64,000 bases of DNA from Isoetes taiwanensis (Eukaryota > Streptophyta > Lycopodiopsida > Isoetales > Isoetaceae). The notes beneath the pieces were generated by a model. The model was not told the DNA's origin, did not search any database, and saw only the letters and a list, made by a program, of their open reading frames with translations. A program made the position numbers and the translations under genes. The DNA lies in NCBI GenBank assembly GCA_021234155.1, contig JAJEKV010000084.1, positions 1,426,001 through 1,490,000 of the forward strand, written 5' to 3'. Below are positions 4,284 through 62,995 of this stretch, in pieces; position 1 is the stretch's first letter; every line of letters starts with the position of its first letter.

Positions 4284-6096
4284 TTGCTTGATCCTTATCT
4301 TGTGCCTTGCAATCACATTCAACGTGTTGACATCCGGCTAGATATTGACACCCCTACAGGCATTGCTTATGTTGCTGCTGTCAACAGCCTTTATTCTTTT
4401 CTACTCAAAGTGTTGACCCCCTGGTGTTGTTACAACCACCTGCTCATACCGTCACAGACATGGAGGTAATTCCGCATATTCAGACTCCGAAAGTTGAAGT
4501 CATTGATTTAGGAGACAACCAACCCATCTGGTTGGCTGCCAATCTTCCTCAAACCTGTAAAGCTCAAGCACTCAGTCTCTTCAAAAAATTCAAGCACATA
4601 TTTATGAACATCAGCTGCAACAGGCAATTCAGTCTGCTGATGATGCTCATCATCAGCATGAGACCTACATCTCCTTGGTTGTCCACATTCAGGATGATTT
4701 TCCAAAACCCACGAGCTATTTAGATTATGTTCAATCTCGAAGACATCTCTTTCTGCTCAAGTGGTTCACTGCTAATGGCACTCTTCACGGCTCTCTCATC
4801 AGTAAGGATCTGCTCACTATCTGGCCCAATCTTTCCATTGAAGACAAAGGCCTTCTTTGTGCTCTTTTGTGCTCTTCTTACATTTCAGCTTATTTTTTGT
4901 GAAGATCAAGAATTCTTTATTCTTCGCCTTGTTCAATCAATGGCGTATGTCATGCACGATTTTTATCTGGCTGACACACAGGATAAGTTTGATGACAGTC
5001 CGCATCGTGCCTTTCAAGGTAATCCAGATGCCAAATTGCTGTTATGGCAGAAAAATAAATATCTTCAAGATCAGTCAGGGGTCAATGCTCTTACGGCGGA
5101 GTACATGCCCGAGCTTGTTCGCCACTTGCCCCTTTGGATTGCAGAAACTTTGCAGCAAGTCCGCAAGAACTTGCATGAAGAAATAGAGATTCAACTTGCT
5201 CAGATCTACATATGGCACTTAGGTGGTCTTAACAGTCTTCGTGCCTATCTTGACGGCGAGATCATTCCTGTTGACTGGGTTCCTCCCCTTGTCAAACATT
5301 TCTTTCCTGTTTCGACTAGAAACGACGGTGTCAAACTCTGGATGCTGATCTCCTACAAGAGTTCCGTGATCAAGCTCAACAGCCTATGATGCAAGCTCCT
5401 CCTCAGGATGATATTCTTTATGCGTCCTTAGGAGCACCTCCACGCCGTTAGTTTCTCACTTCAGACTGGCGCTCCTCCTTTTGGACAAAGGCTCTGGCTG
5501 GTCGCGCTAATTGGACCCCGGCACATATCTCCACAGATGGGATCCATGCTTCTGTGCTGTAATGTTTGGCAGGAAGGAGAAACCTTGGATCACAATCGCA
5601 ATTGGATCTACATTCCTAATGAAAGAGGTTGGCAACTCCCAGCTCATGCCGTCTGGAGACTTACCCAATTCTTGGAGCGAGCTGCCACGTCCCCTGATCC
5701 GTCAGTACACCGTCAAGCTAGTTTTTGTGCTACTCTAAAGTGCCTTCTCACATGTTCCATTGCTCGCTGACATCCTATATATTATTATAATCCCAATGCC
5801 AGTGCTAGTGCTTTTGGTCTCCAGACTTGTCTGCTCATTGAATGTCAGTATGTTCCCGCAGAGGGACACCGTGCTTTTGAAGGCATGGCGTAGTCTGGTT
5901 TTTTTATAGATGCGTCACCTTCCATTGGGGTACACACTTCGGATGCTTTGAAAGAAAGGCAAGATCTCATCCAGAAATATCACTCTGAGGCTCGTCCTTA
6001 TAGCCGGTAGAATGATTTTGACAAAGTTCCTGGTTTTCCCCCTCCTGAATCTGTGTCTGCTTTTCTCTCCTCCGAGTGTTCTTTGGTGGGGGGGAG
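4284..6096 (+). mobile_element. degenerate LTR retroelement internal region
   Basis: Several frames each hold pieces of one decayed coding region. Around 4500-4610 the translation resembles the linker before reverse transcriptase of Ty3/gypsy polyproteins (a QPIWLAANLP-type segment followed by a helical FKKFKHIF stretch). From 4727 to 5389 one frame stays open for 220 codons but has no domain I can name. More open pieces in other frames run to about 6050. I see no reverse transcriptase YxDD box, so the polymerase core seems deleted. Immediately after it come a G-rich polypurine tract (6087-6096) and an LTR-like TGTTAG start, which gives the orientation. The element is 5'-truncated: no 5' LTR is visible. 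Confidence 0.55.
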
Positions 6097-18948: not shown

Positions 18949-20853
18949 TCACAGAATATTGTATATACTGGCAGTTGAATAGATATTCGACATGGGAACA
19001 TATGTTGCGTCACAGCTGGAATCCAAATGCATTACTACTTCAGAACAATGCCTCCCTAGCTTCACATTGTCATGCACTCGACAGGCACCAAGCAAAGCTG
19101 TCCATCCGAAAATATTGGGTTCCAATGCATCTTGCATCAGATGTTCAGCTTCTCTAAAACATCCACCATGTCCCAAAAGGTCCACCATGCAAGTAATGTG
19201 ATGCACATTTGGTTCTAAACCCGAATTGAAATATTGATGACCTTCATCTACCAATCCAACACAGCTGCATGCACTTAGCAGGCCAATAAAAGTTATACTA
19301 TCTGGAGCTATATCACTGGATAGCATGCTCGCAAAACACAGCACGGCTAAACACGCATTTCCATGCTGAGCATATCCTCCAATCATTGCATTCCATAATA
19401 CCACATCCCTACTTGGCAATGTCTCAAATATGTTCCATGCCTTGTTTATGTTTCCACATTTGGCATACATATCAATAAGGGCATTTGCAACTAGAAGATC
19501 AGTTTGTAGGTTATACTTAATGATCTGTTCATGGATGGATTTACCATGTTTTATGGAACCCATGTCGTTGCATACTTTTAAAATGCTTATAAATGTTACT
19601 TTCCCTGGATTTATTCCTTGACTTTGCATCTCATGAAAACAATCTAAAGCCAGGAGGCCTTTGCCACACTGAACATATCCTGTGATCAGAACATTCCATG
19701 GCACTACATTGCTTGTTGGCAACCTCTCAAAGACTTTGCGTCTTTGCTTCCAAGTATCCACATTTGGCGTACATGCTAATAAGGTCGCTACCAATAACAA
19801 CATTAAACCGCGGCCCAATTTGTAAAACGCTCATGGATGCATTTACCATATTCTATGGCACCAATACCACCACATGCTTTTAAGATGCTCACGAAGATGA
19901 TCTCTTGGGGTTTTGTCCCCGACTTTGCATCTTTTCAAAACATTCTAAGGCATGAAAACCTTCATTATGCTTTGCACATAACCCCGCAATCATTGCTCCC
20001 CAAGTAATCTGCGTCCACGAGTTGGCATTCTCACAAAATTGCCCGAGCTACTTTCGTCCCCACATTTGGCATACATGCTAACCAAAGGTGCTTCCCACCA
20101 CAACATCAAACCGCAATCCCTTTTCTATGATCCACTCATGGATGTATTTGCCCTTGTCTATAGCACCAATGTCGCCACAAGCATTCAAAATGCTCGCAAA
20201 TGTTACCTTATCGATGTATTCCCGCATTTTGCATCTTTTCAAAACAATCTAAGGCGAAAATCCCTTGCCACAATCGAACATATCCCGAAATCATAGCACT
20301 CCATGACACCACTTCAAGATTTGGCAACAAAGTTAAGGACCCCGTATGCTTCATCTAAATTTCCGTGATTTAACATACATATTAACCAAGGCACTTCCTA
20401 ACTTAATGTCGACCGAGATCGGTTTGGGTGATCTCACGATGTATATGCTTTCCATGTTCTATGTTAGAGCATGCTTTCAAGATGCCCGTAAACGTGAATT
20501 TGTTGGGCTTACTACACGCGCATGTCTTGCATTCTCTCGCATAAATTTGAGTGCAAGGTCACGGTTTCCATGCTTGGCATGAGTTGATATGATTGCATTC
20601 CAAGTATATGGGGTTGGTTCGCAACTTTTGCAAAAGCCCGGCTTGCTTCAACAAGACTTCTACAGGTAGCAAAGAGCCTAACGAGATTATCGCAAAAGTA
20701 TGCAACCCGATTCAAGTCCGGGCCGTGGAGCATACCGGATCGAAGAAACCTACCGATTCGCATCCTTCCATTTGAAACATTCTGTGGCGCGAAACACAAG
20801 GTCTCTTGACAAAATGCCATCTTTCCTAGGCTCTGATTTCTGTGGACAGCCAA
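18949..20853 (-). pseudogene. PLS-type pentatricopeptide repeat protein, decayed
   Basis: PPR proteins of this class bind organelle RNA and act in editing, splicing or stabilisation in plastids and mitochondria. The 3' part (19818-18949) is open for 289 codons and shows consecutive motifs: NVVPWNVLITGYVQCGKG, VTFISILKVCNDMGSIKHGK, LIDMYAKCGNINKAWNIF, VVLWNAMIGGYAQHGN and then an E-domain start (GWTALLGACRVHDNVKLGRH). It stops inside the E domain, and no DYW deaminase follows. Upstream (19830-20853) the same repeats continue in all three frames with many stops and indels, including a start-like segment with LVRLFATCRSLVEASRAF. It is clearly a pseudogene. The motif style is abundant in ferns and lycophytes. 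Confidence 0.88.
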
Positions 20854-35645: not shown

Positions 35646-36233
35646 TTACAATGAAGATGAAATAACATGAAGATGCATCCTTTGGTCAAACCTTAGGTCA
35701 GCAATTTCTTCATGGGCATCCTTCGTGGCTTCTGATTGCTCTTTTAAGAAAATTCCCACCAGCCTTATGACCAGATCAACATCATAAAGAGACTCGCCTC
35801 GTGAGGGATGCACAGGAACAGGAATATTATCTAAGGTGGCCATGTCTAACTGTGATCCAATCATTATTTCAAGCTGCTTCTTACATGTTTTGCCAGCATT
35901 TAGCACGATCGCTACCCTATACATGCTGAACAAAAATCTGCATGAGATTGAACTGCGTTCAAGTCCATACAGTAAAGCTACTACTGCCTCCAAGACTTCC
36001 TTCTGAACCTTCTCAGTGTAGCTATGCAAAATTTCTTCATCAACATTGCCCTTCTTTTTGGAACATACCCAGCTATATCCAAGCATTGGCAATGAGGACC
36101 TTAGATAATGGAGTAAGAACTTGGCAAGGACCTTGTTGTCCACATTATTTGACATTAGAGACTTTACAACTTTCTCCATTAGATAGATAGAAAGGCTTGA
36201 AATATCTGTGAACCACCACGTTCTAGAAAGCAT
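35646..36233 (-). pseudogene. NPH3-domain fragment (BTB/NPH3 phototropic response family)
   Basis: NPH3/RPT2-type proteins pair with phototropins and CUL3 at the plasma membrane in blue-light signalling. This 195-codon frame covers the N-terminal half of the NPH3 domain: TWWFTDISSLSIYLMEKVVK, then SSISCRFLFSMYRVAIVLNA, and QLDMATLDN followed by SLYDVDLVIRLVGIFL. These match the family blocks WW-EDVS-LS, FLFGLLR-A-ILNAS, QLD-ATLDDLLIP, LYDVD-VQR. No BTB domain is visible upstream, and the C-terminal half with the conserved Tyr region is missing. The family is usually about 600 residues, so this is a truncated copy or an isolated exon; no stop falls within it. Confidence 0.8.
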
Positions 36234-36239
36234 CCTTGA

Positions 36240-37930
36240 TGATATTTGTGAAACGAAGATGGCCTACGGAACTCATGAACCTATTGGCACTAGAATCGGG
36301 GAGGAAGAGAAGGGACTTAAATGCCTAAGCTAAGATATACTTTCGTGGCTATTGCATCTCGCACATCTCGACAATCTGTTTTTTCTCTGCAAGTGAAAGA
36401 ACTTCCTAACATCCCCTCAAAACAAGAAGAACATCTTCCCATCCCCATTGTGTAATATTTTTCAAATAAAGCTCGATCATCCGACCTCAGATCAAACCAA
36501 CAATCAACCCTTGACCAAAGCCATCATCATTGCCTCGGTCAAAACCTGCAAAAAATAGAGATTGACGAATGTCCTGGCTTGGTGTTGCCATGCACTTTGT
36601 ATTTATGTTGGTCAAACCATGCAATATTTGAAATGTTAAGTTGCAAGAAAAGATGCATATTCACAATATGGTCAACAATTTTTTTTACAAAATATCTACA
36701 TTTGCCGAAGACCATATAATTAGGCTTCACATTAATGTAATTGCCTTCACATTAATCTAATTGCCATTTTAGAAAATAATAATAATAATAATATGATTAA
36801 ATCGAGCTTCTTAGGACCCAAAAGGGCAAAAAAAAAAAAAAAAAAAAAATAATGAGACGCTTAATATGCACTTAAAAAAACGCAAAATGAATCGAGAAAA
36901 TTTATGGTGCCAAAATGCCAAGATAACCATGTGAAATTTTACTTTCATTTAGTAAGAATTTTTCTGTCTATTTCTTTTAACCTCACATCATCGACAAAAA
37001 TGCACCTTCTCTAATACCACACGTCTTAGGGCTCAACTGGTGCGAAACAACATTTTAAAATTTTCAAATCACAATGTGAACCATACATTTGAATGATATA
37101 TTAAATAGCTTTTGCTCTTGGGTGACAAAACGCCAAATGGATACATTGTTGGGATTACCAACAAAGCCATGATGATCACTCACTACTCTAATTAAGGATA
37201 ACAAACTCTAGCTCGCTTATTACTTGTAATCGGGGATAACAAAGAGGATTAGAGATTCTAATGTAATAGAAGTTGTTAGGGATAACAAAGAGAGTTAAGG
37301 ATTAACGTAACAGGAGTTGTTTCACAGTTGTTTCCAATCACAAAGAACAAAGACCTATATGAGCACTCTATCAATGCTTGCACTGCACTGCAACAGATGC
37401 TTCCCAAAAAATCAAGACTGGCTTAATATACCGTATGTGTTTCAAAGAGGCCGCCCATCACACAGTCCGAAGTGGACTCACCTGCTATGCTTATTTTCAA
37501 CAGAACGGGTTGTACATTCTGAGTACAACAGAGACAACAGAGACGAAAACGATATAAAAATCAAATAGAACAAAGTAAAAATGAAGACTAGCTTAACATT
37601 CCTACAGTAACTTGTCATAATTCTGTAAATTTAGTGTGGATAAGATGCCTGCAAGTGGAAACTCCACAGTTGTATATCAAAGGAGAAATAACACCATGCT
37701 TTATACCGACAAAGATGCACAAGGAGAAAAATTTACAACAAGTAATCGACAATCCCCATAGACTTGTGATGATATGTTGTGACTTGTCCGACTGAATCCC
37801 TGCTATTCGATTGGTCCTGGAATCACGAAGCAATGTTAATTTTTATTTCCACTAGAGAAAACCATAGACACTTATAGAAAGGTTATCGTAACTTCAGGAT
37901 ATCCACTGCATCGTTTCAACCTTACAATAG
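36240..37930. other. no gene recognised; possible solo LTR
   Basis: Contains an A-rich tract at 36828-36849 and an (AAT)n run near 36775-36792. A segment from TGTTGGGATTACCAAC (37147) to GCTTAACA (37601) has LTR-like ends, but I could not confirm a target-site duplication, so I do not call it. Frames are short. Confidence 0.4.
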
Positions 37931-42124: not shown

Positions 42125-42799
42125 TTAGGTTTGCACGCAGATATTTCTAGATTTGTTATCTCGATGGTACATCGTCACCCTGTTTGTCTCCAAAGATAAT
42201 CCTAACAACTTAATCAGATTTAGCTCTATTTCTGATGCCTTCAATCCGCTCATTGCAGAGCAGACTACATGTGTAATTTTATTTTTAGACTGCCCCCATT
42301 CGGCTATGGCTTTTAAAGCCGCCTCTTTTGCAAGCCTGGGCATCTCTACAAATGCAAAATCTTGCCTTACATCCAACAATCTCTCTCCAGCAGTGCAGAG
42401 CGACAGATTTGCCTTCAGAATCTCCTCCATCAAGGCAAATGCAATACAACGAATTGAGGACTTACATATGTGGCGAAATTTGTTCTTGAGCTCGATTTTG
42501 TGGTCAGAATTGGTGATGCCGAATAAGAAATCAGGATATTTAGTCTGTTCAATGACGGTAGGAGGATTGGCAGTGACCATAGCTAGGGTTGAGGCAGTGC
42601 CATTTGCTATCGTCTCTGCTCTGCAAAATTGGGCAGCCATAGCTAACAAATTGAAGCTTGTCAAAGCTTGTGCAACTTGCATAACACGATTTTGAAAATT
42701 GGCAGCCACATCTTCAACATCCCTAAAGAATGCAAACAAACAATGCAAACAAAATACAGATGGTTCCGAAAAAAAGCCAATGTTGCAAACCAACTGCAT
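42125..42799 (-). pseudogene. chalcone synthase-like (type III polyketide synthase) N-terminal fragment
   Basis: Chalcone synthase condenses p-coumaroyl-CoA with malonyl-CoA at the entry to flavonoids. From an internal Met (about 42649) the frame follows the family: AMVTANPPTVIEQTKYPDF, TNSDHKIELKNKFRHIC, LMEEILKANLSLC, LDVRQDFAFVEMPRLAKEAA, EWGQSKNKITHVVC, KLLGLSLETNRVTMY. It then diverges just before the catalytic Cys (family MYQQGCFAGG), so Cys164, Phe215, His303 and Asn336 are all lost. The intron that most seed-plant CHS genes have at the Cys of KRMC is absent: the reading runs straight through RHIC. About 224 codons stay open, so the truncation may be fairly recent. The first 50 codons of the frame are not CHS. 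Confidence 0.88.
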
Positions 42800-42899: not shown

Positions 42900-43716
42900 T
42901 GTTAGGATAAAAAATGAAACCAAGATGGTTTTCTTCCTGTCCTGGATTACCTAAACCGCAGCATCCACAAAAATGCATGGCCGCATTGGTCCACAGGAAT
43001 GCCTTGTGGACTGCAATGGCGCCGGAGTTTTGTATGCAGGGGCAAGCACAGGTCTGGCTATGGCGGATGTCAGAATAGTGGGGCAAGATTTACCAGGCAA
43101 ATCTTCAAGACCCATAAGCCTTGCAACCACATCTGGGGGTCTAATTTAAATTTCTGCCAGAGCAGCTATGACAGCTTTTGCATTGGACTTTTAGATCTTG
43201 AAGAGCTTCATTTTTCTGCTGGATTGGTTCTATGCTATCTAGAGAAAACCGTGAAAAATCTCTGTTTCTCTGTGACCCCCGCAAAATCCAGTTGGGTCAG
43301 CATCATGTGTATCCTGGTGCTTGGCCGCTCTTGCGGCAGCAAGCCTTGCATCTGTGCGTGGCTTGGTTGGTGTGGCTGATTTGGAAGTGGCGGCGGTTGT
43401 GGATCTTTCAGGGGATTCAAGCACCTCCGGCCTCTCACGATTCCTCGACTTCGGTACAAGCTATTTCAAAAGCTTTACGGTGTTCCCGGGAGTAGTAGAG
43501 CGGAAGTTTGCCATTTGGTGGGACTTCTTGGGTGTTGTAGATGGTGATGGTCGGTTTGTACAGCAGTAAAATTGCAGTTTTTCTGTGAGTTTGTTGTGGA
43601 GTGTCGAGGTATCGCTGTCTCTTTGGGGCAGTTCTCCTTCCTCCTCACTTGCTTTGTAACATTACCATTCTTTTAATATATTGATGACACAGTTCTTCAA
43701 AAAAAAAAAAAAAAAA
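42900..43716 (+). mobile_element. 3' end of a LINE (family L-A), 5'-truncated
   Basis: Plus-strand frames carry a decayed zf-RVT-type C-terminus, clearest at 43334-43420 (QALHLCVAWLVWLIWKWRRL). The 3' untranslated region from about 43594 (TTGTGGAGTGTCGAGGTATC ... ATTGATGACACAGTTCTTC) ends in a pure A tract (43699-43716). The same 3' end is found as a 110-bp insertion at 62661-62770, and a related protein at 62241-62501. Confidence 0.8.
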
Positions 43717-43719
43717 CGT

Positions 43720-46690
43720 CAACATCACAACTCACTAAGTATTAGAGTGCATTAATGGCCGCAATAAATGCAAAGTGCACACATGTCCTGTTTTGATAAT
43801 TTTTAAGGAACAAAATAAGCGAGAACAGAAATGGATACTGCATTACATAGGAAGGAAAAGTAAGACATATATCCTATTTTTGGGTAGGTTTGATTCCTTC
43901 TTTAAGGAGAATGGAATCTTAGGCCGAATTTCCATTAACGGCAGTGGGAGTACTCCTTAAAAATAGTAGCCAACAACAAATCCCCACGTCACATTTTGTC
44001 ATTCTTGCATCTTTCCATTAGTTGTGGTAACTGTATATGTGGCATTGTTTTTATTGTTGCCATTGAATTTTCATTAAAGGCAATAGGAAGAACTTTACCT
44101 AAAAATAGCTAAAAGTCTTTCTGCTGTTGCCGTTAATGGAAGGCTTCAAAGTAGAAAATGCCGGCAACTCCAAGTTTTTCGTTGTTACTGCCTAGAAGCT
44201 ACCACACCATGCCATTTCCAAACCTACCATTAGTGGAAATCTGGCCTTATTCTATACTAGGGGCTCGGTATAAAATAAGGCAATGTCATATATGATAATT
44301 AAATTATTGGAATAGGACGTGTCTCATTTTTTGATGGTTTTCCACTAGCATTTTGTTGGTGTTGCATTCTACGACACCTCGTAGTGGGAAAAAAAACTTC
44401 AATTTTGTGTCCTATTTTTTTGGTTTGGAGTTATGAAAGGGTGTCATATATCAACGTGAATGTCTTATTTTATGTTTGTATCATTTAGGAGCACCTACAA
44501 ACTCAGCATCCTCACCTATCACATCATCTTCACCTGCATCAATTTCAGCATCTGAACCTACTCCAGTAGGATCTTCTGTGGTCCTCAATATGCGTGTGGT
44601 TTCTCCAACACGTGCACCAATTCTACAGGAATTTGAACAAATTGACCCATTGAAACAGGTACTAGCTACTGTTCATGATAGAAAACCTTATGGAGCCATT
44701 TGACAGTAAGCTCCGGGTAGAGCAAACATAAAAACTAGGATCTGAAAAGGAAATCTTAGGGCTTAGAGCAGAAATGAAAGAGCTTACTTGACACTAAACA
44801 AGAAGAATTGATTCAGTTACGGTAAGGAGTTATGGCAGGTGATAATTAAGATTAAAACTGATATACAACAAGATTTTACATAATGGAAAGCACATATGGA
44901 AAATGAACAGGAAAACAAGGAAGAGGAAGTGGCTCTTGAAGCATAGGGTTCCTGCATCTTTAGCTCTACCCTATAGGGCTAGGGCGTAATGGCCATAGAG
45001 GATTGCCACGTGGCAATATAACTTATATTCACATGTTCCATAGATATGTCAGATCAACCGCAGCTTTCTAAGCTCTGGCAAAAGAGGGGCTTCAATCTGA
45101 GCCCGTCAAAGGTAGAATTTCGTGACTTATATGCTGCTTTGACCGTCTGGTGATGTCTATCACCAACGGCTTCATCGGAAGGGCACGTTTCTATATTGTC
45201 TGCTCAAACTGTCTATGACACAGAGGCAGCTATGAATGGAGCCATCTCTGTATTTTGGAAGTGCAAACCCAGTTTTCTCTGGCGGAGCTATGGTGCCTGG
45301 TATGGATTTGCTTTGCAAAAGTCAGTTCCGACAAATGATCTTGTTGGATATCCGCCTTTTTTCCAGGACGAGTTTCACTCTGTATCTTTTGGCCATGACA
45401 GAGCTACCGACTGCTCGCCAAAATCTTGGTTCAAATAACAATACTTTGATGCATCCTTCAGGTATGGTTTATTAAATCATCCACAAATGGTCAATTTTCT
45501 TTTTGAAATAGACATTTCTAAATTTGATCATAGCCCGTGCTTGAGTTGCATTTATTTAACACAGAATGATGGTTTTGCTGCCAGTGTTATTTGTTCATCC
45601 CAACAGCATCAGACATTTCTTTCTTGAAAAGGGTTCTTATTCTGGCTTTATATTTTGGTGATATGAAATAGAATATAACCTAAGTTTATCGTTTTAAATA
45701 TTATGCCACAAATATGAATCAACTTTTTTCTAGATGATTTTCAGATTTTTTTTGAAGCATTTAGTGCGTTCAGCAAAATCTGCTTTATGGCACCAGTGTC
45801 ATTTCGATGCTTATATGATCAAATATCATAAACCTCAATCAGATATTCAAAAGATATTACAAAACAACTGTAGAACTCAGCTTAATGGTGGAACTATTTT
45901 ATGCAGGACTTTTAGCTTAGAGACATGTATAGAACTGGAGTTCATCTCTCCTATCAATGCCAGCCCGCTAACACGAGGTCATCTTCCTATTATCGAGCTC
46001 TTAATGGTGAGCAAGAACTCGATGGGGAAGAGTAGACGTGTCATTCGTCCCGTCTCTTTCGGGATCTACCTAGAGATGCGGAAGCATATAAGCACATGGC
46101 ATCACATAAAATACATGTCCACCTCGAAGGTGGCTCACCATAACACAACATCTGAACAATAACGTCAATAGCATCAATAGAGAAGGAAAATCCCACCCAA
46201 GCTCAGACTCATGGGGATCGACTGACGACTTGGGATCTCCAGAAGTCAATGCAGACATAATTCAAGGCAAATGGATTTGGCTGGTATAAGAACATGACCG
46301 TTGGGTAGTCCACTCCATCCGCTCCTCCTGTGCATACTTTGCAGATAGGTTGAAGGGTATTGGGGATGTGACCATAGCCTGCTAGATGCATAGTACTCCT
46401 GGGTTGCATCTCCTCAGTCCCAATGAGGCAGAAGAAGATCACTCTCCAGAAGATCCACATGCGAGCTAGAGAGCCACTGCTTGTCTACGATTTGAACCCC
46501 ACTGAGGCGACGTATAACCTAGGAGATGTCAAGCCCATACCTTGCCCACACTCAGTGGCAAGATATTAGGCCTAGCCAACAACGTTCCCCAGATGTCTCT
46601 ACGCACTAGAGAGATCAACAGTAGCCGGACAAGCCTTCCTTATAAGCCGGTCTAACCCCGCCACCCACAGCCAGGCGGGCTCCTATGCAC
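43720..46690 (+). other. exon-like plus-strand stretches, unassigned
   Basis: 44486-44703 follows an AG acceptor and reads GAPTNSASSPITSSSPASIS and then LQEFEQIDPLKQVLATVHDR. 45236-45475 reads FSGGAMVPGMDLLCKSQFRQ and LYLLAMTELPTARQNLGSNN. 45734-46162 has a 142-codon frame. They could be exons of one decayed gene, but I recognise no family. The stretch 43950-44250 has poorly conserved local similarity within itself (GTTGCCGTTAATGGAA / GTTGCCATTGAATTTTC). Confidence 0.3.
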
Positions 46691-46706
46691 AAGCCGCAAT
46701 TATTAG

Positions 46707-48190
46707 GTGCTAATGAGGCTATCTAGGAGCATCGTCTACAAAGGCTCTGGGTCTCTACCCCCCTTCCCAATATACAAGAGTTGCGCACAGATCAATGCGA
46801 TATCACCCGCCCGACAATTCCAGCCCCGCAATCTCTTCGAGGAGTATGAGATGCCAACTCCAAAAGAAGAACTATCTCAGGTAAAGTCCGACATACATGA
46901 AATAAGGGCTTTGCTAGCAGAGCGGGCATCGAACACATCGGACTAAAATGTCTAGTTCCCTCAGGCACTGCCTCAGACCAAGGATAAAGGAAAAAAGATG
47001 AGCCTGAGAAGGAGATCTCCAGTACATACTCGTCAGATAGAAGCTCTGACTCGATTCAGAATCAGATGAGGAAGTGGAAGTTCAACACGATCGCCGGGGA
47101 GGTCTGAACAAAGATAGACCAGGGAAAGGGGCCGACTATCAAAAGAAAGTGGATTCAGCCTTGAGCAATGTGTGGAAAGCTCGAAAAATCGAGCAATTTT
47201 TGGGCAATAATAGATCAGGGATGGAAGCCGAGGCATGGATTGAAGAAATGAGAGAGTATGGCAACGCTTATGGAATGAAAGATAAGGACAAGGGCAGAGT
47301 TGCCAGTGCAAACCTTAAGGTGCTGCCAGAATATGGTGGTAAGGGTTATGCCAAAGCGCACGGGTTAAGCATAGACAGTTGTAGATTTAGAAAGTTTGTG
47401 AAGGTATTCAAACGCCATCATGTGCCTAAAGAACACAAGTTTTACATGATGTAACAGTTTTATAGGCTGGAATTCAGTACAAAACTACATCGAAGAGTTC
47501 ATGAGATTGAGGCTCTTTGTGCCGAAGCTAATTGAGCGACATGCTGTGGAGGGCTACATTGAGGTCCTTAATGATGAAATCAGAAAACTTGCTCGAGCAA
47601 TCAACCCGCGGACAGTAGTAGAAGCGGACTCCAAAGCAATAAGCTTGCAAGGGACAGGTCCCCAATTAAATAGTGGCCAGAAACAATATTTATATATATG
47701 ATAAGGGGAAGAGTTCGGGAGGCTATAATCTGAGAGCAGCAAGCCCGGCACCTGTTAGACCATCGTACAATGCAAAAAATGAAAAGCAGAATAAGAAGCA
47801 GGTCAGCTTCAAAGACAAGGGGCAAGCAGGAAGATCCAACTACTCCAAAGCAATGAAGCAGTCCTTGCAGTCCATCCCAACTGAAAAACGACAAGAATGT
47901 ATAGAAAAGCAGTTGTATTTCAGATGTTTCCAACCGGGACATCGGACGCACACTTGTCCATTCGTGATGAACGCGGCACTAGCAAAGCTGGGAGGATGAG
48001 AGACACCCCTGGAAGACGACGACAAAGAAGCTCGCGACTACATCCAGGGTGAGTGCCACATCCATGCAGCCATTGACATCGAGAATGTTGAGAGTCGGTA
48101 CCAAGTCATTTCGACAATAGGGAAAGTAAAAGCAAAATCCTTCATAATGTTGTTAGACATGAGAAGCAATAAAAGAATCTCAACAATTTA
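46707..48190 (+). mobile_element. chromovirus gag and protease remnants
   Basis: Consecutive frames give an acidic N-terminus (46707-46946), a helical gag core (47074-47454, 47501-47701 with FVPKLIERHAVEGYIEVLND) and a basic region ending in a zinc knuckle (47673-47999). The knuckle reads YFRCFQPGHRTHTC: the first Cys of C-x2-C-x4-H-x4-C is Tyr, a single TGT to TAT change. Near 48140 the protease active site D-(S/T)-G is replaced by D-M-R. Several frameshifts separate the pieces, so the element cannot be autonomous. Confidence 0.75.
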
Positions 48191-48729: not shown

Positions 48730-49575
48730 GATTCCTGATGCATGGAGCCTGCCATGAGCACAACGTATCATCCTCAAATAGATGGGCAAATAGAGTGCAC
48801 CAATCGGATATTGGAAGACACGTTGAGAAACTATGTCTAGAACAAACAGTCGAAGTGGGATGACTACATCCATTTGTTGGAGTTTACATATAATAGCACC
48901 AAGCAGTCATCTCAAATGTCCCCATTTATGATCAATTATGGCTACCAATGCTTGATCCCGGATATATGGCACAACCCGGTGACCAAGGTAGAAGTTTTTC
49001 AACAGTCGCTAGCCGACATGCAACAGTTAGTTGATGAAGTCAGAGGATATCTCCTAGCAGCAAGAAGCCAGTTGAAGAGCATAGCAAACAAGCACAGAAC
49101 AGTAAGAGAGTTCCAAGTAGGGGACAATATTGGGCTGAAGATAAAGGTCGAATAAGTGAAACTCCACATCGGCAATTGCAAGAAGCTTGCTCCAAGGTGG
49201 GCTGGACCATTTAAGATAGTCGAAAGAGTAGGTAACCAATCCTACAAATTGGACTTACCAGTAATCCACAAAGTTTTCCACGTAAGTGTCATAGAGAGGC
49301 ACACTCCTAGTCCAGAAGAAGTATTGGACACCCCAGCATTACTGGAAATGACCGATGAACAACTTGAGATTGTTCCGAAAGTCCTTGACAGATCTTACAA
49401 GAAAACAAGAAGGTCACAATTCCTCCAATACTTAGTCAAGTGGAAGCACTTACCTGTGGAGGATGCGACGTGGGAACTACAATCAGATTTCAACAAGCAG
49501 TACCCACAATTCATGAAGCAATGCAAGGGACAACTGGTCACTGAAATAGTGGACACCGAACCGATATATAGGTGA
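48730..49575 (+). mobile_element. chromovirus integrase C-terminus and chromodomain
   Basis: The frame starts with STTYHPQIDGQIECTNRILE, the end of the integrase catalytic core, and continues with NYGYQCLIPD and the GPFKIVERVGNQSYKL/HKVFHVSV block of Ty3/gypsy integrase. At 49381-49500 a chromodomain follows (QYLVKWKHLPVEDATWE), which in chromoviruses targets integration to marked chromatin. There are two in-frame stops (TAG near 48840, TAA near 49153). Downstream are a (GATAA)n run at about 49667-49699 and about 570 bp of non-coding DNA before the polypurine tract. Confidence 0.9.
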
Positions 49576-50268: not shown

Positions 50269-50959
50269 TGTGACGTTCCAACATAATATATAGTGTGAAT
50301 ACGTATATTATACTGTCCCATCACTAGTACATGTCAACCCCAACGACATGTACATGAAGTATAATCGTTGGAACCATTAACATGTCCCATTAACATGTGC
50401 ATATAACCCATTGCCACGTGGGATAGCCTAAGCAACCTTTTAGATTCCAACTCTAAAAGTGTCAACTTAAAAGGAGCCTGGAACCCTAAAAGTCTCCCTT
50501 TCAAATTCCAGTCTCCAGAGCTCGCATTGCTCAAGCAATAGATCCATTCCGACTTGCCAGCGACGGTGGAGCTTTCTTTTCCAAGCAGATCACCAACATT
50601 AGACCATCTCGAGCATCCCGACAGCATGGACACCGTCCAAGGACTTGGGGCAAGCCAAGGATCTGGTATGTGGTTGATCTGTTATACAATGCTAGCTTCC
50701 CAATCGACATTAGGCCGAGTTTGCATCTTTTCTTAGCCTTAGAAGATCTCTAGATCCCCAGATCTCAGCCTCTAACGAAGGAACCTAACCATGTATGTTT
50801 AGAGTAGATAGATTAGATCTTTACTCTGTTATTTCAGTTCATTGATGGTATTGCTCGGCGGTCCTGGATGTTCTAGCTGTACACATTGAATTATAATTCT
50901 TAATATGAGTATCTTTTGTGGTTGCATTCGTTGCTTAATGACATAATTGTTCGGACAAA
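50269..50959 (+). repeat. 3' LTR of the chromovirus
   Basis: TGTGACGTTCCAACATAATA begins directly after AAGGTGGGAAGAA, a typical gypsy polypurine tract. The 3' limit is set at a CA near 50959 and is approximate. The first 195 bp are repeated in inverse orientation at 55013-55203. No matching 5' LTR is recognisable upstream of 46.7 kb. Confidence 0.65.
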
Positions 50960-51082: not shown

Positions 51083-52556
51083 TTATAAAAATTTCTTTAC
51101 TTGGGCTGTACCAATCGTACATCCCAAGTTCTCGAGGATGTTTGCGGTCATTCCTCCTTGCATAACCGCTACAAGCTCTTCGACTATTCTGTCAGAGGTG
51201 TAGGTAGCAGTAACTGCTAGCCTGCCAGACTGTCGATAGGGGACTGCGAAGTCGAAGATGCTTAATGCTATTGATCTCTTGACTAGTATGCCATGTTTGA
51301 CACTTTATTGAAGTCTTGCATGTCTACCGAAGCCCGAGAGTGTAATTAGCATGAATACAACGTTTTCCCCCCACAAGCTGAACTGGTAGTAGATCACTGC
51401 TATCCTACCGTCGGTGAGGAGTGGCAGGTACTATCTAAGGGCCCTATCTTGTCTTGTTTGCGAGGCTTCTGTCTTTGTTTTCTTGTTTGTTCTGTGTCTG
51501 CCCGCATACTCGTCCTCCACTAGAACTGTGATCGATTCCCTATGATTTGCAAGTTGAGTTTTGAGGTGAGTTAGGTTGATGGCTCCTGCCCTGTAGCTGG
51601 GGGTGGGTGCCCTCGAGGAAGAGCTCAGTTGAAGTGCACCTGTTGTCTTCCTTCTGATACCCATTCATTCTTGTATCGCTATAAATTCTTTCTCTGCTGG
51701 TAGCTCTTGTTGGATCATTATCTGCCTGATCCTACCATAGGCCTGTAGGTCTGTGGTGGGTTGGCATGTGTATGACACCGACTCGCATACGTCAACTAGT
51801 CTTGCGTCTCTTGATTGATAAAGTCATCCAGGTTCGATTGCTGCCATAGAAAATGTAAGAACTCATCTATTTTGTATCCACGATCTCTACATTGGGGTAG
51901 ATTCTTGATATTGTGTAGGAGGAGATATTCTTCACCTCCCATGATGATAGGGGTCAGGCTTGTGATGCCTAGCCCGAGTGGTGGGGCTATCCAAGTTGTC
52001 TGCAAGTCTGCGTCGAAGCAGTGGATCTCTTGCTGATCCACTTCGATAATGTCCTCGACACCATCGTCCTCTTCACCTTCTTCCTCTTCTTCATTTAATC
52101 CTTTGTGTTACAGGAGTAGATGGTCTTTTCCTGTGGAGCTAAGAGGTTCTATACTCAAAGACTGAATGGAAGGTTCCCCTAATTGTGTCTGGGCTTGTGG
52201 AACAAGAATATGGCTAAAATAGTTGTGTAGGAGAAGTTTTCTGTTCACGGTCATGGTCATGTAGTATGTCATGCGAACATGTTTATTGTCCAGGTACTTA
52301 GCGATGTTTGGGACATGGCTTAAGGCTGCTTGGAGGGATGCCTTGGGTACAAAGAATCCTATGCATGGAGGCAGTTCCTGTAGTGTAGGACCTACTTTTG
52401 CTTGGAATTCTTGCATGACTTCCTAGTAGAAGGATGTGGTTGCTAATGTGGCTGATAGATCAAACTCGTATTGAAAAGCTGAGAAGACAGAGTTGACATC
52501 TACATCTGCTGCATGGGAGTAGCATTGTACCATTGCCTGAATGATGATGTAGCCAT
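51083..52556 (-). pseudogene. unrecognised protein of about 490 codons, second gene of the cassette
   Basis: One minus-strand frame runs from about 52530 to the TAA at 51083 and is interrupted only by five stops (TAG 52423, TAA 52108, TGA 51665, TAG 51431, TAA 51305); each is one C-to-T change from a Gln or Arg codon. ATG at 52556 has a strong context (AACCATGGC) and reads MATSSFRQWYNATPMQQ in a neighbouring frame, so one shift near 52500 is likely. Visible regions are FVPKASLQAALSHVPNIAKY, a strongly acidic stretch (NEEEEEGEEDDGVEDIIEVD), a basic patch (GRHRTNKKTK) and a C-terminus with VEELVAVMQGGMTANILENL. I know no matching family. A TATA box lies 110 nt before the ATG, and two shared palindromes are further upstream. 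The acidic tract beside an H3-like neighbour suggests a chromatin protein, but that is inference only. Confidence 0.6.
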
Positions 52557-52665
52557 GGTTCTGATGAAGCTGGGAATATTAAACAGATGTATAAGCACTC
52601 AGGAAGCTAGAAGATCGGCTTGGAGCGAGGAGCAAAGTTGCATGTTGCTAATGACGGGTACCCTT

Positions 52666-52851: not shown

Positions 52852-52919
52852 ACTCACGCCATGTGCCATAGGCCGGAGTAAGATTCTTAGTTGTGCTCCT
52901 GGCGCATGGCGTGAGTACT
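52852..52919. promoter_or_regulatory. 68-bp palindromic element, copy A
   Basis: Arms ACTCACGCCATGTGCC and GGCGCATGGCGTGAGT are nearly perfect reverse complements (16 nt each) around a 36-bp centre containing GTAAGATTCTTAGTTGTGCT. It lies about 180 bp upstream of the TATA box of the second cassette gene. Confidence 0.85.
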
Positions 52920-53054
52920 GGCAACTTGTTTGGGTCCTAGATGTCGCCAAACTTCCAAAATGAGGGCATTTTCTTGTTGTACTTGATGAGTAGAGCCCGA
53001 AAACCCCTTGTTTGCTCAATTTGGGGTAGTTTTGGGGTAGATCAGGGGTCGACT

Positions 53055-53120
53055 ACTCACGCATGCGCCACATGCCCGAGAAGATTCTCAGTTGTGCTCC
53101 TGGTGCACGGCATGAGTACT
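53055..53120. promoter_or_regulatory. palindromic element, copy B
   Basis: ACTCACGCATGCGCC, AGAAGATTCTCAGTTGTGCT and TGCACGGCATGAGTACT in the same order and orientation as copy A, starting 203 bp away from it. Confidence 0.85.
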
Positions 53121-53258: not shown

Positions 53259-54362
53259 CTAACAATCCTCTTTCTTAATGAATTTTGTTAAGCGCATGTC
53301 CTTGGGTATGCAGGTGACTCTTTTGGCGTGAAGTGCGCATGCCAAGGAATCTTCAAAGTGCTGGACAATCTTTTGCTCTGCGGCTTCTTGCAAGGCGAGG
53401 AGCATATCATCCATCACTCGTTTGGTCTTGTCGAACTCGTGTAGAATTTCATGAGTCAACTTGGCGAATGCTGCTCGGGGTATCAAAAGGTTGTAACTCT
53501 GCTTGAAATGCCTGATCTCCTTAGCTGCTCGTGAGAACAAAGAGTCCATATTCTGATTCATGTACTTATTGGGCGGTTGGGATTTCCCTGAGGGAGGTTT
53601 TTAGGGTATTCTCCTTCGTTGGCCTTCCTCCTTCCACATAGGCAACCATGTGCTCCTGATAGGACTTCGAATATGCATCGTACATTTTCATGTATGCCTT
53701 GTATTCTGCCAGTTTGCGCTTGTATTCCCTGTCCTTCTTCAGGGTGTACGATTCTCGAGCAGGCTTACCAGATGTCTTGGCATCGGGCTTAGGCCACCCT
53801 GGGTGCGATGGGGTTGCATTGGGCTCGTCTGTGTCCGCCTCTTCCCTTCTCGGTGCCAACGATGCTTCTCCTCTTATGTCTTGCTCTTGCTGGTTAGGCA
53901 ACTCCCAAGCATCGTCTGACTTGGCATCTGATGATGTTGATAGTTGATCTGGCTCTCTTTTAGTGATCTTGATCCATTTGTTAGGCATCTTCTTGCTCTT
54001 CCTTTTGGACGTCTTCTCTGGGAATGGATCCTTGTCTTTCTCTGCTCTCTGGCGTGCTAGTTCTTCCCTCTCTTCCATTCTTCTCTTCTTTTCTTCCCTT
54101 TTCCTCCTCTTGATTCTTCGGAGGTGAAGAGTTTCCTTCTTTGACGGTTCTTCGTCGTGATCCCACTCTACGTGCTCATTCCGTTCTTGTGTCTTGGGAT
54201 TCTATTCCTGATCCTTCTCTGTTTGTTTCTCCTCTTGTATCTTCCATTTCTTGGCCTCTCGTGCCTTTTATTTTGTAGTGAGGATTGTTTTGTAGTGAGG
54301 ACTTGGACACTCGTCGATCCGTCTCCCATTACTACCCTTGCCATTTGTTTGGTGCGAGCCAT
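53259..54362 (-). pseudogene. histone H3-like protein with a giant linker
   Basis: The ATG at 54362 (context AAACATGGC) starts MARTKQMARVVMGDG, matching seven of the first eight residues of mature H3. A highly charged linker of about 260 residues follows (Lys/Glu/Arg-rich, predicted coiled, RRIKRRKREEKKRR and similar). The last 100 codons (53561-53259) are a full H3 fold of canonical length: KEIRHFKQSYNLLI, LALQEAAEQKIVQHFED, ACALHAKRVTCIPKDMRL. Counterparts of H3 Arg83, Cys110, His113, Arg116 and Asp123 are present; the loop-1 length is that of H3, not of CENH3. It is broken by a 17-bp tandem duplication at 54271-54304 (frameshift), a TAG at 54202 and a one-base shift near 53570-53600. It is intronless and has its own TATA box and telo-box promoter. 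It could be a captured H3 gene in a mobile element. Confidence 0.85.
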
Positions 54363-54466: not shown

Positions 54467-54530
54467 TATTTATAAGGTTGGAACTTTTTTAGGGTTTCCA
54501 CTAGGGAAATCATGTTATCTATCTAACTAC
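54467..54530 (-). promoter_or_regulatory. TATA box and telo-boxes of the H3-like gene
   Basis: TATAAATA (54467-54474) lies 105 nt before the ATG. Directly upstream is GTGGAAACCCTAAAAAAG with a telo-box (AAACCCTAA), and an inverted one (TTAGGGTTT) follows the TATA box. Telo-boxes are common in plant promoters of ribosomal protein and other S-phase or growth genes. Confidence 0.7.
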
Positions 54531-54593: not shown

Positions 54594-54661
54594 ACTCACG
54601 GCGTGCGCCGGAGGGTTGACTGAGATTCTTAGTCGGGTGCTGGGCGCACGGCGTGAGTACT
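54594..54661. promoter_or_regulatory. palindromic element, copy C
   Basis: ACTCACGGCGTGCGCC and GGGCGCACGGCGTGAGTACT are arms around a centre with CTGAGATTCTTAGTC. It is 68 bp long, like copy A, and about 120 bp upstream of the TATA box of the H3-like gene. The arms pair better than in the other copies. Confidence 0.88.
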
Positions 54662-54789
54662 CATTCTTTGATTTATTTCTTCTGTTTGTTTTCTTAACAT
54701 TGTGATGGATGTTCCTAGCTTAGATTTTGATTTTAAGCTCACTTACCCTACTAGATTATTTGTTAAACTTTGGCCAGCTATGGTCGAGT

Positions 54790-54855
54790 ACTCACGGCAC
54801 GCCAGGAGGCCGAATGAGATTCTTAATATGGTCTTGGGCGCACGACGCAATTAAT
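54790..54855. promoter_or_regulatory. palindromic element, copy D, decayed
   Basis: ACTCACGGCACGCCAGGAGG, ATGAGATTCTTAATATGG and GGGCGCACGACGCAATTAAT. The left arm and centre match copies A-C; the right arm has lost its GTGAGT end. It starts 196 bp from copy C, like the A-B distance of 203 bp. Confidence 0.75.
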
Positions 54856-55012
54856 CACGTCCCTACTGGCAATTTTTTTTAAGTTTTACTACAAATAATG
54901 CACATAATTTCTACATAATTCTAACTAACCTTTTGTACTACAATGGAAAAAAAATCCCCATTATTCGAAGTTCATGCTTGGGATTTTGACTCCAAGGATG
55001 AATCTAACAGGT

Positions 55013-55203
55013 CACTTAGGCTATGCCACGTGGCAATGGATTATATGCACTTGTTAATGGGGACATGCTAATGGTTCCAATGGTTGTACTTCAGGGTACA
55101 ACCCTATAAGGTTGACGTGTACATGTCATTGGGGTTGACATGTACTAGTGACGGGGAAGTATAATATATGTATTCCCACCGTATATTATGTTGGAACGTC
55201 ACA
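55013..55203 (-). repeat. inverted copy of the chromovirus LTR 5' end
   Basis: Read on the minus strand from 55203 the sequence starts TGTGACGTTCCAACATAATA and follows 50269-50463 for about 195 bp, including CACTAGTACATGTCAACCCC and ATTGCCACGTGG(C/G)ATAGCCTAAG, then diverges. It could be the start of a 5' LTR for a minus-strand element containing the cassette, or the other terminal inverted repeat of a 4.9-kb unit. Confidence 0.75.
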
Positions 55204-59033: not shown

Positions 59034-60545
59034 AAGGAAGGAAGGAAGGAAGGAAGTATATTTTAACGTCCACGGAGGCCAACTGGCCTATGAGACGATT
59101 ATAGATATACAATATATCGGATACTATCCAAACACAAAAGAAAACTACAAAAGCCCTATACAATGTGTCTCTACCACTAGGACAAAAAAAACCCCCCATG
59201 TGGGAGGAAAAACCCTTGTAGTAGACGTTCAAATTCCCTATCTGGGCGCTCAAATTCCCTGTGTTGTAAGGGACTCTCTGACGGTGGAGATTTGCAGAAT
59301 GTAGGACGCGAGACGTGCAACCATTGGCGAAGCCAGCAGTTGATGAATTGCTATCTCAGAGCATTTGAGATCGGCATGAGCGGCTCGGATGTGTGCGTAT
59401 GCCGGACACTCCTGTAGAGCATGGTGTTCATCTTCTACTATCTGCATGTGACAGCACTGGCATAATCTCTCATGCCGGGGGATTCCCTGCCCTCCATCCG
59501 TACTCCAGCGGCCTGTCTCGATTCTGAGATGGTGGGACCCTGTTCTCATTGCAGCTATGGCTCTCTGTTTCTTGGTAGAGATGTGTGCCTTCAAATATTG
59601 GTGGGGGCCATGTTCAAGCGACGGATTAACCTGCGTGTGGTAGTGCCCTGTTTTGGGCTTTGCAAGGGCACATCCCACAGAGAGGCAGCAAAGCGCTCAT
59701 TCAAATGCAGCTCCTGTTCCGCGATATCCGACATATCCATAATCTGTTCATAGTCTATGGACCATCTTGCAAACCACCCCTTACAATGCTGCTGCCACTC
59801 TCTCTTCAGTCGTTGCGGCCCTTGTGCCAATAACAGAGCCCGAGGAGGGAGCCGTTATGCCTTATGGAAATACGCAAGGTGCCTGCGCATAGCAGAATGC
59901 TGCAGGGGCCAAAATCCAGTCTCATACAGCAAAATCGGATAAGGCACCGTGTCCTTGACGCCTAGGCTGTATGTCAGGATGGCCTTATGTACCCTCTCTA
60001 GCTTATCCCAAGTGCTCTTGCTAATCGCTGGCCCCCAGTCCTCCACCCCATACAGCAATACCGGTTCGACGAGTGCTCGGAATAAGTGTGCTCGAAACAG
60101 CTATTCTGCATTGCATACAGGGCTTTCCATCCCGCGCTGACCCTTCTTTCTACACAGTCATCCCATAGCATGTTAGCAGAAAAATCGATTCCCATATACT
60201 TAAAGGTCCTTACAACTTCCATCCTTTGTCCTCTGTAATCGAAGTTTGGGATATCATGCTGCGCAGACAAGATTGGCAACAACTTGGTTTTCTGCAGGTT
60301 GACGGTCATTCCTGCTATGTCACAGAATCGACTGAGAGCATCCAAATGTTCCTGCATACTCCTAGCTGTATGGGACAATAAGCCCAGATCGTCTGCATAG
60401 AGCAACTGTTTTATTGTATATGCCTCTGGCAACTGCGGCCCACCACCTCCATGTTCTTGCATCCAGGTCTCCAACTTGTCAATATAGAGTCCAAAAAGCG
60501 TTGGAGATAACGAAAGAGAAGACCATCTATGCCTAGGGGATTTGG
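59034..60545 (-). mobile_element. YADD-type non-LTR retrotransposon, 5'-truncated
   Basis: From 60545 downward the minus strand encodes LSLSPTLFGLYIDKLETWMQ and LLYADDLGLLSHTARSMQEH (catalytic YADD box), then FCDIAGMTVNLQKTKLL, the end of reverse transcriptase. Later frames give MLYGVEDWGPAISKSTWDKL, a thumb-like region, and a Cys-His cluster CQCCHMQIVEDEHHALQEC near 59450. Several frameshifts break it. The minus-strand 3' end is a (TTCC)n tract (59034-59056), not poly(A). The protein differs clearly from the L1-type copies at 7.6 and 62.2 kb, so this is another clade. Confidence 0.8.
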
Positions 60546-60549
60546 TAAG

Positions 60550-61500
60550 GATAGTACTGATCTGTAGGGTGTAAACGATTCAATGTCAACTCAATTAATT
60601 GACCGATGGACATAGATTTAATTCCAAATTAGAAAAGAACGTGCTTGAATAGGTCCAATGCATGAACAATGACATGCTTCTTGTCTGCTGTCTAGAAGAT
60701 GTGAAATATGTATTGCAGATAAGCAACCTCAAAAATGGTTTTCTTATTCAACAACTTATGCTTGATATTTGCCCCGTCTCACAAATATGTGGATGAAGAA
60801 AAAATGCAAAAGTGTTTCATGGTTTCATCAGCTTCCTGACCCCCTGTATTATATACAAATGTGATCTTTTCAATGAGAGGCCTCAAATATGTTGTGAAGC
60901 ACAGGTCGAGGGCTTTGATAGATCTAAATTTGAATCTAGCCAAGTAAATACTAATTTGGTATCGAGAATAAATTATAAGTTTTTACTCAAACAAGTTTAT
61001 GCAATAGAAGCTAAATTTTATAATTGGGCTTGCATAAATACGACAAAGATAGATAGGCTTCTCATTCATCTCCTCATATTTTCTACACTGGTGGATAATG
61101 GGTAGCTACACAGCTGCAGACCACCAACAAATATGAAAAATATAGGGAATATCCAATTATACAACCTGGACCCCAAAATATACAATGCTAATAAATGTTG
61201 ATTTGTATACCTGCTAAAAGCTCATCACCGGGATTAAAAAACCCCGCTCTTTTAGGTTTTCGAGGAAAAAACCCCAGCAATAAACCCTCAACAAGGGGTT
61301 TGGACAAACATAAGGCGGAGTAATCGCTCCCCAAAAAATCCTCGAATGAAGAAATAGAGGCTACTTGCTATCCTGTACCTGCACATCACCAACACTAGAA
61401 TATAACGTGAAAACTAAATTTGCGAACAACCTCTTCAAATAGAAGGGCTGGTCATGTGTGCTACATGAAATTACATTAAACAATAAAATAAAGTGGAGGG
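60550..61500. other. no gene recognised
   Basis: A 97-codon plus-strand frame (60812-61105) has no motif. CCCC/GGGG-rich short inverted segments occur near 61225-61300. Confidence 0.4.
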
Positions 61501-62118: not shown

Positions 62119-62995
62119 TTTTTTTTTTTTTGAAGAATATAAGAATATATTAAACCACTAGAATGCGATCAAGTACAATGATAAGTGTGGTGCTAAGAAA
62201 TGTAGTGCCCATCACGATCCACAATCTGTAGGAATGTCGATCAAATTTCCCGCTTAACTGTGTCAGACAAGCTTGAGACTTGGTAAGCCTGCCACAACTT
62301 ATGCCTCAAGATCGAAACCAACCGAAAAGGGCTAAGCACTGCATTCTGAAAGACCTTCGCTCTCCGTCTTTTCCAAATCAGCCACAAAAGCCAAGCTCTG
62401 CATAAATGAAACGCCTGCCGCTTGGCCACTGCCCAACCGCTAGGAAAGACTCCCAAGAGAATCTTCTGACTGCACAGAGAAGACCCAAAGAGGGCTCTCA
62501 CCCAGGACCAAGCTTCCCCTACCTCTGTGCATAGGACAAAGCAGTGCTCAATGATCTCTCATCGCCTCCCACATAAAGGGCATGTTTCCGCTACCTGAGG
62601 CTTGAACATGTGGACTCGGACATTCATCCTGAGGCTACGGTGCAAGATCTGCCACAAAAGTTGTGGAGTGTCAAGGTATCGCTGTCTCTTTGGGGCAGTT
62701 CTCCTTCCTCCTCACTTGCTTTGTAACATTACCATTCTTTTAATATATTGATGACACAGTTCTTCAAAAAAAGATCTGCCATAAAAGGGTACGGATTTTA
62801 GGAGGAGGCAATGTATTCCACGCCCACTTCCACATGGCGGGCCACTTACTCCCTGGAAGCTTAAGCGACCACTTATCCGAAGGCGGCAACGTGTCCTGAA
62901 GCGCTAGAAGCCCATAAGCCGATGCTACAAACTGAGATGCATCAAGTCCACTATGCGACTTCATGTTTATTGTAAAAAGGAAGAACTGCATTCTT
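62119..62995 (-). mobile_element. LINE 3' fragment with zf-RVT domain, interrupted
   Basis: From 62991 the minus strand reads SDKWSLKLPGSKWPAMWKWA and PPPKIRTLLWQIFF, the plant zf-RVT core, then after the nested insertion VHMFKPQVAETCPLCGRR and AWLLWLIWKRRRAKVFQNAV (62400-62320). The 3' end is TAATATATTCTTATATTCTT followed by poly(A), seen as T13 at 62119-62131. The protein and 3' end resemble the 42.9-43.7 kb copy, so it belongs to the same or a sister family. Confidence 0.85.
62661..62770 (+). mobile_element. 110-bp 5'-truncated LINE L-A inserted in another LINE
   Basis: The segment matches 43594-43705 almost base for base (TTGTGGAGTGTC(A/G)AGGTATC through ACAGTTCTTC and an A tract). It is flanked by a 17-bp target-site duplication, AAGATCTGCCACAAAAG at 62644-62660 and AAGATCTGCCATAAAAG at 62771-62787, differing at one base. 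Confidence 0.95.

Follow-up and report, generated by a model that had tools for sequence, protein, structure and literature searches.

A decayed open reading frame (ORF) on the minus strand of the window, which is the whole stretch of 64,000 nucleotides of Isoetes taiwanensis DNA that was analysed, is a defunct copy of the gene that comes first in an LTR retrotransposon with a chromodomain; the element was assigned to the Ty3/gypsy chromoviruses by its LTRs, its primer site, the order of its domains, which include reverse transcriptase (RT), and the chromodomain. The encoded protein combines the N-terminal residues of histone H3 with a long charged linker and an H3 fold, and this fold is under strong purifying selection in two types of the gene, A and B. 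The identity of the locus as a retrotransposon H3-fold gene, taken jointly with the purifying selection on the fold, is considered highly probable. The first-pass annotation had described an H3-like protein of unusual architecture; the present analysis goes beyond it in that the locus is one decayed member of a large retrotransposon family and not a host gene, and in that the fold is selectively maintained.

The H3-like ORF of the window and its surroundings

The mature H3 N-terminus that had been noted at the start of the locus is present, since the ATG gives MARTKQMAR (Table 1). The histone-fold profile search proposed in the first-pass annotation returned a strong match: the terminal ORF (53600-53259, 113 codons) matches Pfam Histone over residues 21-104 with an E-value of 5.5e-16 and H3 chains of the PDB with 7e-18. 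The fold has canonical length, as had been claimed, with a gapless alignment to H3 from about residue 47 and a C-terminus of equal length, and the alignment confirms the retention of R83, C110, H113, R116 and D123. In the window copy, tail, linker and fold do not all share one frame, and two stops are located in the linker frame upstream of 54201. The open stretch of 211 codons from 54201 to 53566 has a p-value of 0.0015-0.004 against first-order Markov controls. When neutral drift down to the identity of the window fold with H3 (39/87) was simulated 1500 times, a stop-free frame was combined with an equally good substitution score in 0.6% of the runs, whereas a frame without stops occurred in 7.4% and such a score in 2.1% when each was considered separately; thus, the window fold has probably diverged under constraint. 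A PDB search matched no solved structure to the linker, and no relatives were found in the viral contigs and prokaryote genomes searched. Structure prediction comprised two single-sequence AlphaFold models, both of poor quality.

Table 1. Features of the H3-carrying element and of its neighbourhood in the window.
Feature	Position	Strand	Remarks
Decayed type-A H3-like ORF of the retrotransposon	53259..54362	-	tail, charged linker and H3 fold; frame changes and stops
H3 tail residues MARTKQMAR	54336..54362	-	ATG at 54362
17-bp tandem duplication	54267..54300	-	at the split of the tail and linker frames in the window copy
Charged linker frame	53566..54201	-	211 open codons, A-rich
H3-homologous segment	53262..53597	-	begins near H3 residue 30; region from alphaN through the C-terminus, 53262-53534
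TATA box TATAAATA	54467..54474	-	105-112 bp 5' of the ATG; similar site at equal position in other copies
Two telo-box motifs AAACCCTAA	54452-54460; 54489-54497	+; -	flank the TATA box
Palindrome (hairpin) unit 5' of the H3 ORF	54594..54661	-	weaker, degenerate unit at about 54784-54850
Two palindrome (hairpin) units 3' of the H3 ORF	52852-52919; 53053-53120	-	
Start of the 5' LTR (TGTGACGTTCC...) of the minus-strand element	55000..55203	-	LTR positions 1-106 match 55203-55095; remaining LTR mostly unrecognisable
ORF2 remnant, next gene of the H3-carrying element	51389..52598	-	tblastn with ORF2 of L009, E 2e-94, 47-59% identity
3' LTR remnant of the second element	50269..50847	+	LTR positions 1-82 and 583-675 match
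Polypurine-tract-like stretch	directly before 50269	+	by reading; compare the C1049 copy
Integrase-chromodomain remnant, probably of the second element	48751-49554	+	tblastn E 3e-136
Gag remnant, probably of the second element	47062-48185	+	tblastn E 7e-135
Additional LTR piece of the family	46025..46772	-	

The window copy is incomplete as an element, with the LTR start alone recognisable at its 5' end, and tblastn found no gag-pol belonging to this minus-strand copy inside the window. The plus-strand remnants of gag and of the integrase chromodomain, together with the polypurine-like stretch and the LTR at 50269, most plausibly form the 3' half of a second element. The arm 55203-55000 matches 50269-50447 as an inverted repeat because the LTR starts of the minus-strand and the plus-strand element face opposite ways. 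A terminal-inverted-repeat transposon bounded by 50269 and 55203 was therefore discarded, both ends being LTR starts in opposite orientation. Elsewhere, the window contains coding segments of NPH3, chalcone synthase and PPR proteins (35646-36263, 42125-42799 and 18949-19830, respectively), which identify it as plant nuclear DNA. An RT ORF is located at 59998-60579 on the minus strand, and two repeats of 113 bp (43593-43705 and 62660-62772) are 99% alike, one of them being followed by a long A run; these are perhaps the 3' ends of a LINE.

A family of chromodomain retrotransposons with an H3-fold ORF before gag

In the same 1.66-Gb genome, the window fold, which is of type A, has at least 150 relatives; all 150 matches scored, out of 7967 first-look candidates, were significant, which makes the copy number a lower bound, and their identity to the window fold is 66-82%, self-match aside. 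Twelve loci of 10 kb were fetched, and since 11 were chosen for long open frames, they are not a random sample. The fold lies within an open frame of 393-489 codons in 11 of the 12 and is broken in L020; the frame of L018 starts within the tail (TKQTAR), and those of L017 and L019 stop short of it. Eight uninterrupted copies encode proteins of 379-421 residues, which start with M-A-[R/C]-T-K-Q and continue in the same ORF through a linker of 253-296 residues, with a K+R+E+D content of 41-49%, to a complete H3 fold. The search of the same genome suggested in the first-pass annotation has thus recovered the order of tail, linker and fold in single uninterrupted ORFs, and its estimate of about 260 charged linker residues is borne out by these copies. 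Local duplications also occur: L014 and L022 (C1080) are tandem copies of a roughly 7.9-kb segment that includes the H3 ORF, with about 96-97% identity, and L015 (C952) has a second, partial copy immediately upstream.

A TATA box is found at a similar place upstream of the ORF in the type-A copies, with TATAAAT exact in the window and in four of eight copies and as variants in the other four, and telo-box motifs surround it in the window and in most copies. Telo-boxes mark cell-cycle promoters, and the TATA box and telo-boxes possibly represent a promoter of the H3-like ORF's own. Hairpin palindromes occur on both sides of the H3 ORF in units spaced by about 200 bp and could be an RNA signal. 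Three of the four in the window have fold energies of -34 to -36, and three palindromes folded from other copies (L009, L012 and L014) have another sequence at a similar place, with fold energies of -28 to -39; in L009, such units lie at 3516-3765 and 5397-5869 in element orientation.

Pfam searches of type A (L009 and the C1049 copy) revealed Histone (1.2e-21), Retrotrans_gag (1.5e-17), RVP_2, RVT_1 (1e-41), RNase H, integrase and Chromo (2.9e-10). Gag, zinc knuckle and protease are located on L009, and RT, RNase H, integrase and chromodomain on L032; the order gag-protease-RT-RNase H-integrase with a C-terminal chromodomain is found in type A (L009, L032) as well as in type C (L044). Two whole elements, one of type A (C1049) and one of type C (C1019), were traced, and both contain LTRs, 5-bp target duplications, a tRNA-type primer site, the H3 ORF, gag, pol and the chromodomain. 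The LTRs have TG..CA ends in both. Those of the C1049 copy (L013, L032) are 1.6 kb long (TGTGACG...GACGTCACA), are flanked by the duplication ACATC and differ at 76/1580 sites (K2P 0.050); those of the C1019 copy are flanked by CAATC and differ at 63/1654 sites (K2P 0.039). The primer site gTGGTATCAGAGC, which we take to be of the initiator-Met tRNA type, is common to both elements, and the polypurine tract before the 3' LTR reads aaggtggggagaa in type A and agaggagaaaa in type C. Thus, the LTR-flanked cassette of the first-pass annotation was right in substance, as the H3 ORF belongs to an LTR retrotransposon. Among the twelve type-A loci, which end at 10 kb, ORF2 follows 3' of the H3 ORF in 11 and gag in six, and nine show LTR similarity across 150 bp. 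Regarding the accessory domains, ORF2 separates the H3 ORF from gag in types A and B (L009:2480-3844 and L043:7290-8351, both on the minus strand, and the window remnant); it has no Pfam match, and the type-A version has no match in the PDB. The integrase chromodomain of L032 (433-2730, plus strand) seems to lack part of the HP1 aromatic cage and may therefore not read methyl-lysine.

When canonical H3 was used as the genome query, 15 host-type genes (96-98% identity) and 135 further matches (71-86%) made up the 150 matches scored of 9064 candidates. By fold identity, these should not overlap with the type-A matches since type-A folds share only about half of their residues with canonical H3. 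Eight of the 135 were read and all are H3-fold ORFs with other N-termini: six belong to type B, one to type C and one, which is partial, to type D. Type B starts with MA[I/N][T/I]K and its fold is 78-87% identical to canonical H3 over the aligned part; the values for types C and D are 81% and 87%. Types B and C match Pfam Histone with 4e-41 and 2e-43, respectively. The downstream DNA was followed for two of the 135 matches, one of type B and one of type C, and both precede gag-pol, with RT and integrase chromodomain recognised by Pfam; gag was recognised by Pfam in type C and by its likeness to type C in type B, where pol is broken. Type B carries an ORF2-like gene (E 2.6e-4 between ORF2 of A and B), and the single type-C copy read has none. 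The N-terminal 300 residues of L034 and L037 belong to a region without Pfam match that is common to the H3 ORFs of types B and C (B versus C, 42% over 470 columns).

Selection, conserved residues and affinities of the fold

In both type A and type B, strong purifying selection acts on the fold. The median dN/dS (NG86) is 0.067 for 15 type-A folds including that of the window, a value from the 28 of 105 pairs with unsaturated dS, and 0.029 for six type-B folds with all 15 pairs usable, compared with 0.021 for one pair of host H3 genes; NG86 is a crude method, dS is saturated for most type-A pairs, and pairs are non-independent. For the type-A set, the frame-broken L022 was dropped and L008 trimmed; inclusion of L022 leaves the median at 0.067, now from 47 of 120 pairs with values between 0.025 and 0.83, of which the top one belongs to the pair of L014 and L022. 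A breakdown of pN/pS by region in type A gives 0.074 in codons 1-9, 0.533 in the 15 codons that follow, 0.219 in a Tyr-rich stretch and 0.087-0.119 in the fold. The first two values are from eight copies, and that of the tail is biased because these copies were selected by the motif MA[RC]TKQ.

Fold positions, which we take to be contacts to H4, to the other H3 or to DNA, were tabulated in 22 copies (14 of type A and eight of types B, C and D). C110, H113, D123, L126 and I130, presumably H3-H3' residues, as well as K115, R116, R69, F67, L92 and A95 are kept in all 22, and R83 and F104 in 21. R63, which is assumed to contact DNA, and R129 are replaced in all 14 type-A copies and kept in all eight of the others. 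A full-length H3 tail, i.e., ARTKQT through K27 and K36 at normal length, is absent from types A, B, C and D. In type A, only H3 residues 1-8 are clear; ARTKQT is present in seven and ARTKQTAR in five of the eight tails, ARK[S/T] is absent, and KKP at the place of K36-K37 is kept in most copies. With K9 in only three of the eight tails, the idea that the chromodomain reads a K9-methylated tail of the element itself is disfavoured. In types B, C and D, a lysine near the place of K27 ([A/G]-K-[T/S]) is kept and K36 is changed to R in 8/8 copies; type B lacks an intact ARTKQT tail, and three of its six proteins have ARK[S/T] elsewhere, further upstream. Besides, the type-B proteins L033-L036, L038 and L039 contain a stretch that resembles ARK[S/T]G or AHK[S/A]G, is located some 70 residues N-terminal of the KPHR motif and is reminiscent of the surroundings of H3 K9. 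Judged from these alignments, the putative H4- and H3-pairing residues are kept and the tails rebuilt. It is doubtful that the rebuilt tails would be unable to carry repressive methylation, a reading that is weakened by the K27-like lysine in 8/8 copies of types B, C and D, by ARK[S/T] in half of the type-B proteins and by KK in most type-A copies; thus, silencing lysines are not simply missing from these tails.

In a tree of the folds, type A forms one clade (100/100), and little distance separates types B, C and D from host H3 and from one another. When human CENP-A is left out, type A and plant CENH3 reference sequences share a branch at 93/87 (not starred). The hypothesis that all types go back to a single capture is not rejected (p-AU 0.135). 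Of the 48 residues at which the window copy differs from H3, 11 match plant CENH3 (expected 3.5, p 2.7e-4). According to PMC7598501, CenH3 proteins are recognised by a longer loop 1 and the loss of Q, F and T at positions 69, 85 and 108. Q68, F84 and T107 are lost in all 14 type-A copies (to A, to V and to S or L, respectively), and loop 1 has the length of H3 and is not longer; all eight copies of types B, C and D retain Q68 and F84, with A at position 107. The type-A fold may descend from CENH3 or from H3.

Possible roles and relation to known systems

Several explanations for the locus and its relatives make no use of a maintained retrotransposon gene. The window copy alone, with its parts in different frames, could suggest that two ordinary H3 pseudogenes were joined by chance via unrelated DNA; the same order in one ORF in the eight copies read argues against this, and the probability left to it is negligible. 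The same can be said of an intron-containing host gene whose apparent frameshifts result from ignored splicing: the splice donor with the highest score of this strand (53768), paired with a good acceptor (53588), would bridge the linker and fold frames, and 825 two-intron models but no one-intron model keep the frame in the window copy; however, the stretch between these sites codes in the linker frame by its codon periodicity, is not T-rich, and is crossed by other copies in one ORF. A host pseudogene of H3 or CENH3 was dropped, as the fold belongs to a large family that is dispersed in the genome and followed by gag-pol. H3 capture by transposons has been published for fungi (PMC6710886), and a host H3 might likewise have been swept up and multiplied without use. 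The low median dN/dS of 0.03-0.07 indicates that the histone is maintained and is not a passenger, and the long uninterrupted ORFs and the diverged types with an H3 ORF before gag-pol also speak against such hitchhiking, which is very improbable.

For a maintained histone, it is tentatively proposed that the protein pairs with H4, enters chromatin as a histone variant and alters how the host reads this chromatin. It would be made from a promoter inside the element, pair with host H4 and enter nucleosomes that sit on DNA of the element itself or surround its integration complex, where the rebuilt tail would alter the set of host chromatin proteins recruited; binders of the K4 end of H3 could recognise the ARTKQT end that type A has kept. 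Entry into nucleosomes and mimicry of the H3 tail, both raised in the first-pass annotation, are thus plausible readings. Put in evolutionary terms, and with the same reserve, a chromodomain retrotransposon lineage may have evolved its own nucleosomal H3 variant, which is deposited on the element with a tail differing per type. Such tails might let the element escape or redirect host silencing marks, and an arms race would then have left its mark in their diversity. The replacement of R63 and R129 in 14/14 type-A copies, however, counts against a chromatin variant. Two live rivals compete with it. The fold might act in the element particle, where linker and H3 fold would bind RNA or DNA as an accessory nucleocapsid for packing; the position of the H3 ORF upstream of gag, the highly charged linker and the loss of R63 and R129 in type A are compatible with this, but gag has its own zinc knuckle, and packing would require neither the ARTKQT end nor the H3-H3' residues kept in all copies tabulated, so that we regard a particle role as rather unlikely. 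Less likely still is a CENH3-derived or CENH3-like type-A histone that would direct the element to centromeres. The residues matching plant CENH3, the unstarred branch and the residue losses printed for CenH3 point in this direction, whereas the length of loop 1, the proximity of types B, C and D to host H3 and the single capture that is not rejected point away from it.

Plants silence transposons through histone marks. If the histone-variant reading is true, an element with its own H3, in which the fold is kept and the tail rebuilt, would interfere directly with silencing and would be a new source of histone variants. A retrotransposon H3 also allows one to ask which H3 features a genome parasite keeps or changes. 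No LTR retrotransposon carrying a histone was found in searches of an open-access literature library. Histones are also encoded by viruses, such as the bracovirus H4 with an extended tail and the histones of Marseilleviridae and Medusavirus. These resemble the present case in that a mobile or viral genome encodes a histone, in the bracovirus one with an added tail, but they concern other viruses, hosts and histones and no retrotransposons. CENH3/CENP-A shares with type A the diverged H3 fold, the long variable N-terminus and the loss of Q68, F84 and T107; here, in contrast, loop 1 has the length of H3, and many copies are carried by a retrotransposon.

Plant chromoviruses (PMC3350952) have the same LTRs, tRNA primer site, order of gag, protease, RT, RNase H and integrase and C-terminal chromodomain, whereas the elements described here place an H3-fold ORF ahead of gag and also carry ORF2 in types A and B. 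Plant LTR retrotransposons with additional ORFs (PMC7264820) and orchid elements with AlkB (PMC9289625) likewise keep an extra gene, and the authors of the latter study proposed that AlkB bears on host control. The word 'histone' is missing from the main text on the former; a mention of it in the latter study refers to the marks bound by chromodomains, and it is absent from PMC5408684 on rotifers. The nearest parallel for H3 multiplied by a mobile element is provided by the hAT transposons of Dothideomycetes, in which a captured H3 reached hundreds of copies (PMC6710886). These are DNA transposons with terminal inverted repeats; 90% of the H3-like sequences are truncated, and in P. fijiensis all H3 copies but the original are inactivated. 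Instead of the transposase, terminal inverted repeats and 8-bp duplications of hAT elements, the elements of I. taiwanensis have LTRs and 5-bp duplications. Thus, in contrast to the fungal case, H3 is carried here by an LTR retrotransposon, in long ORFs and under purifying selection.
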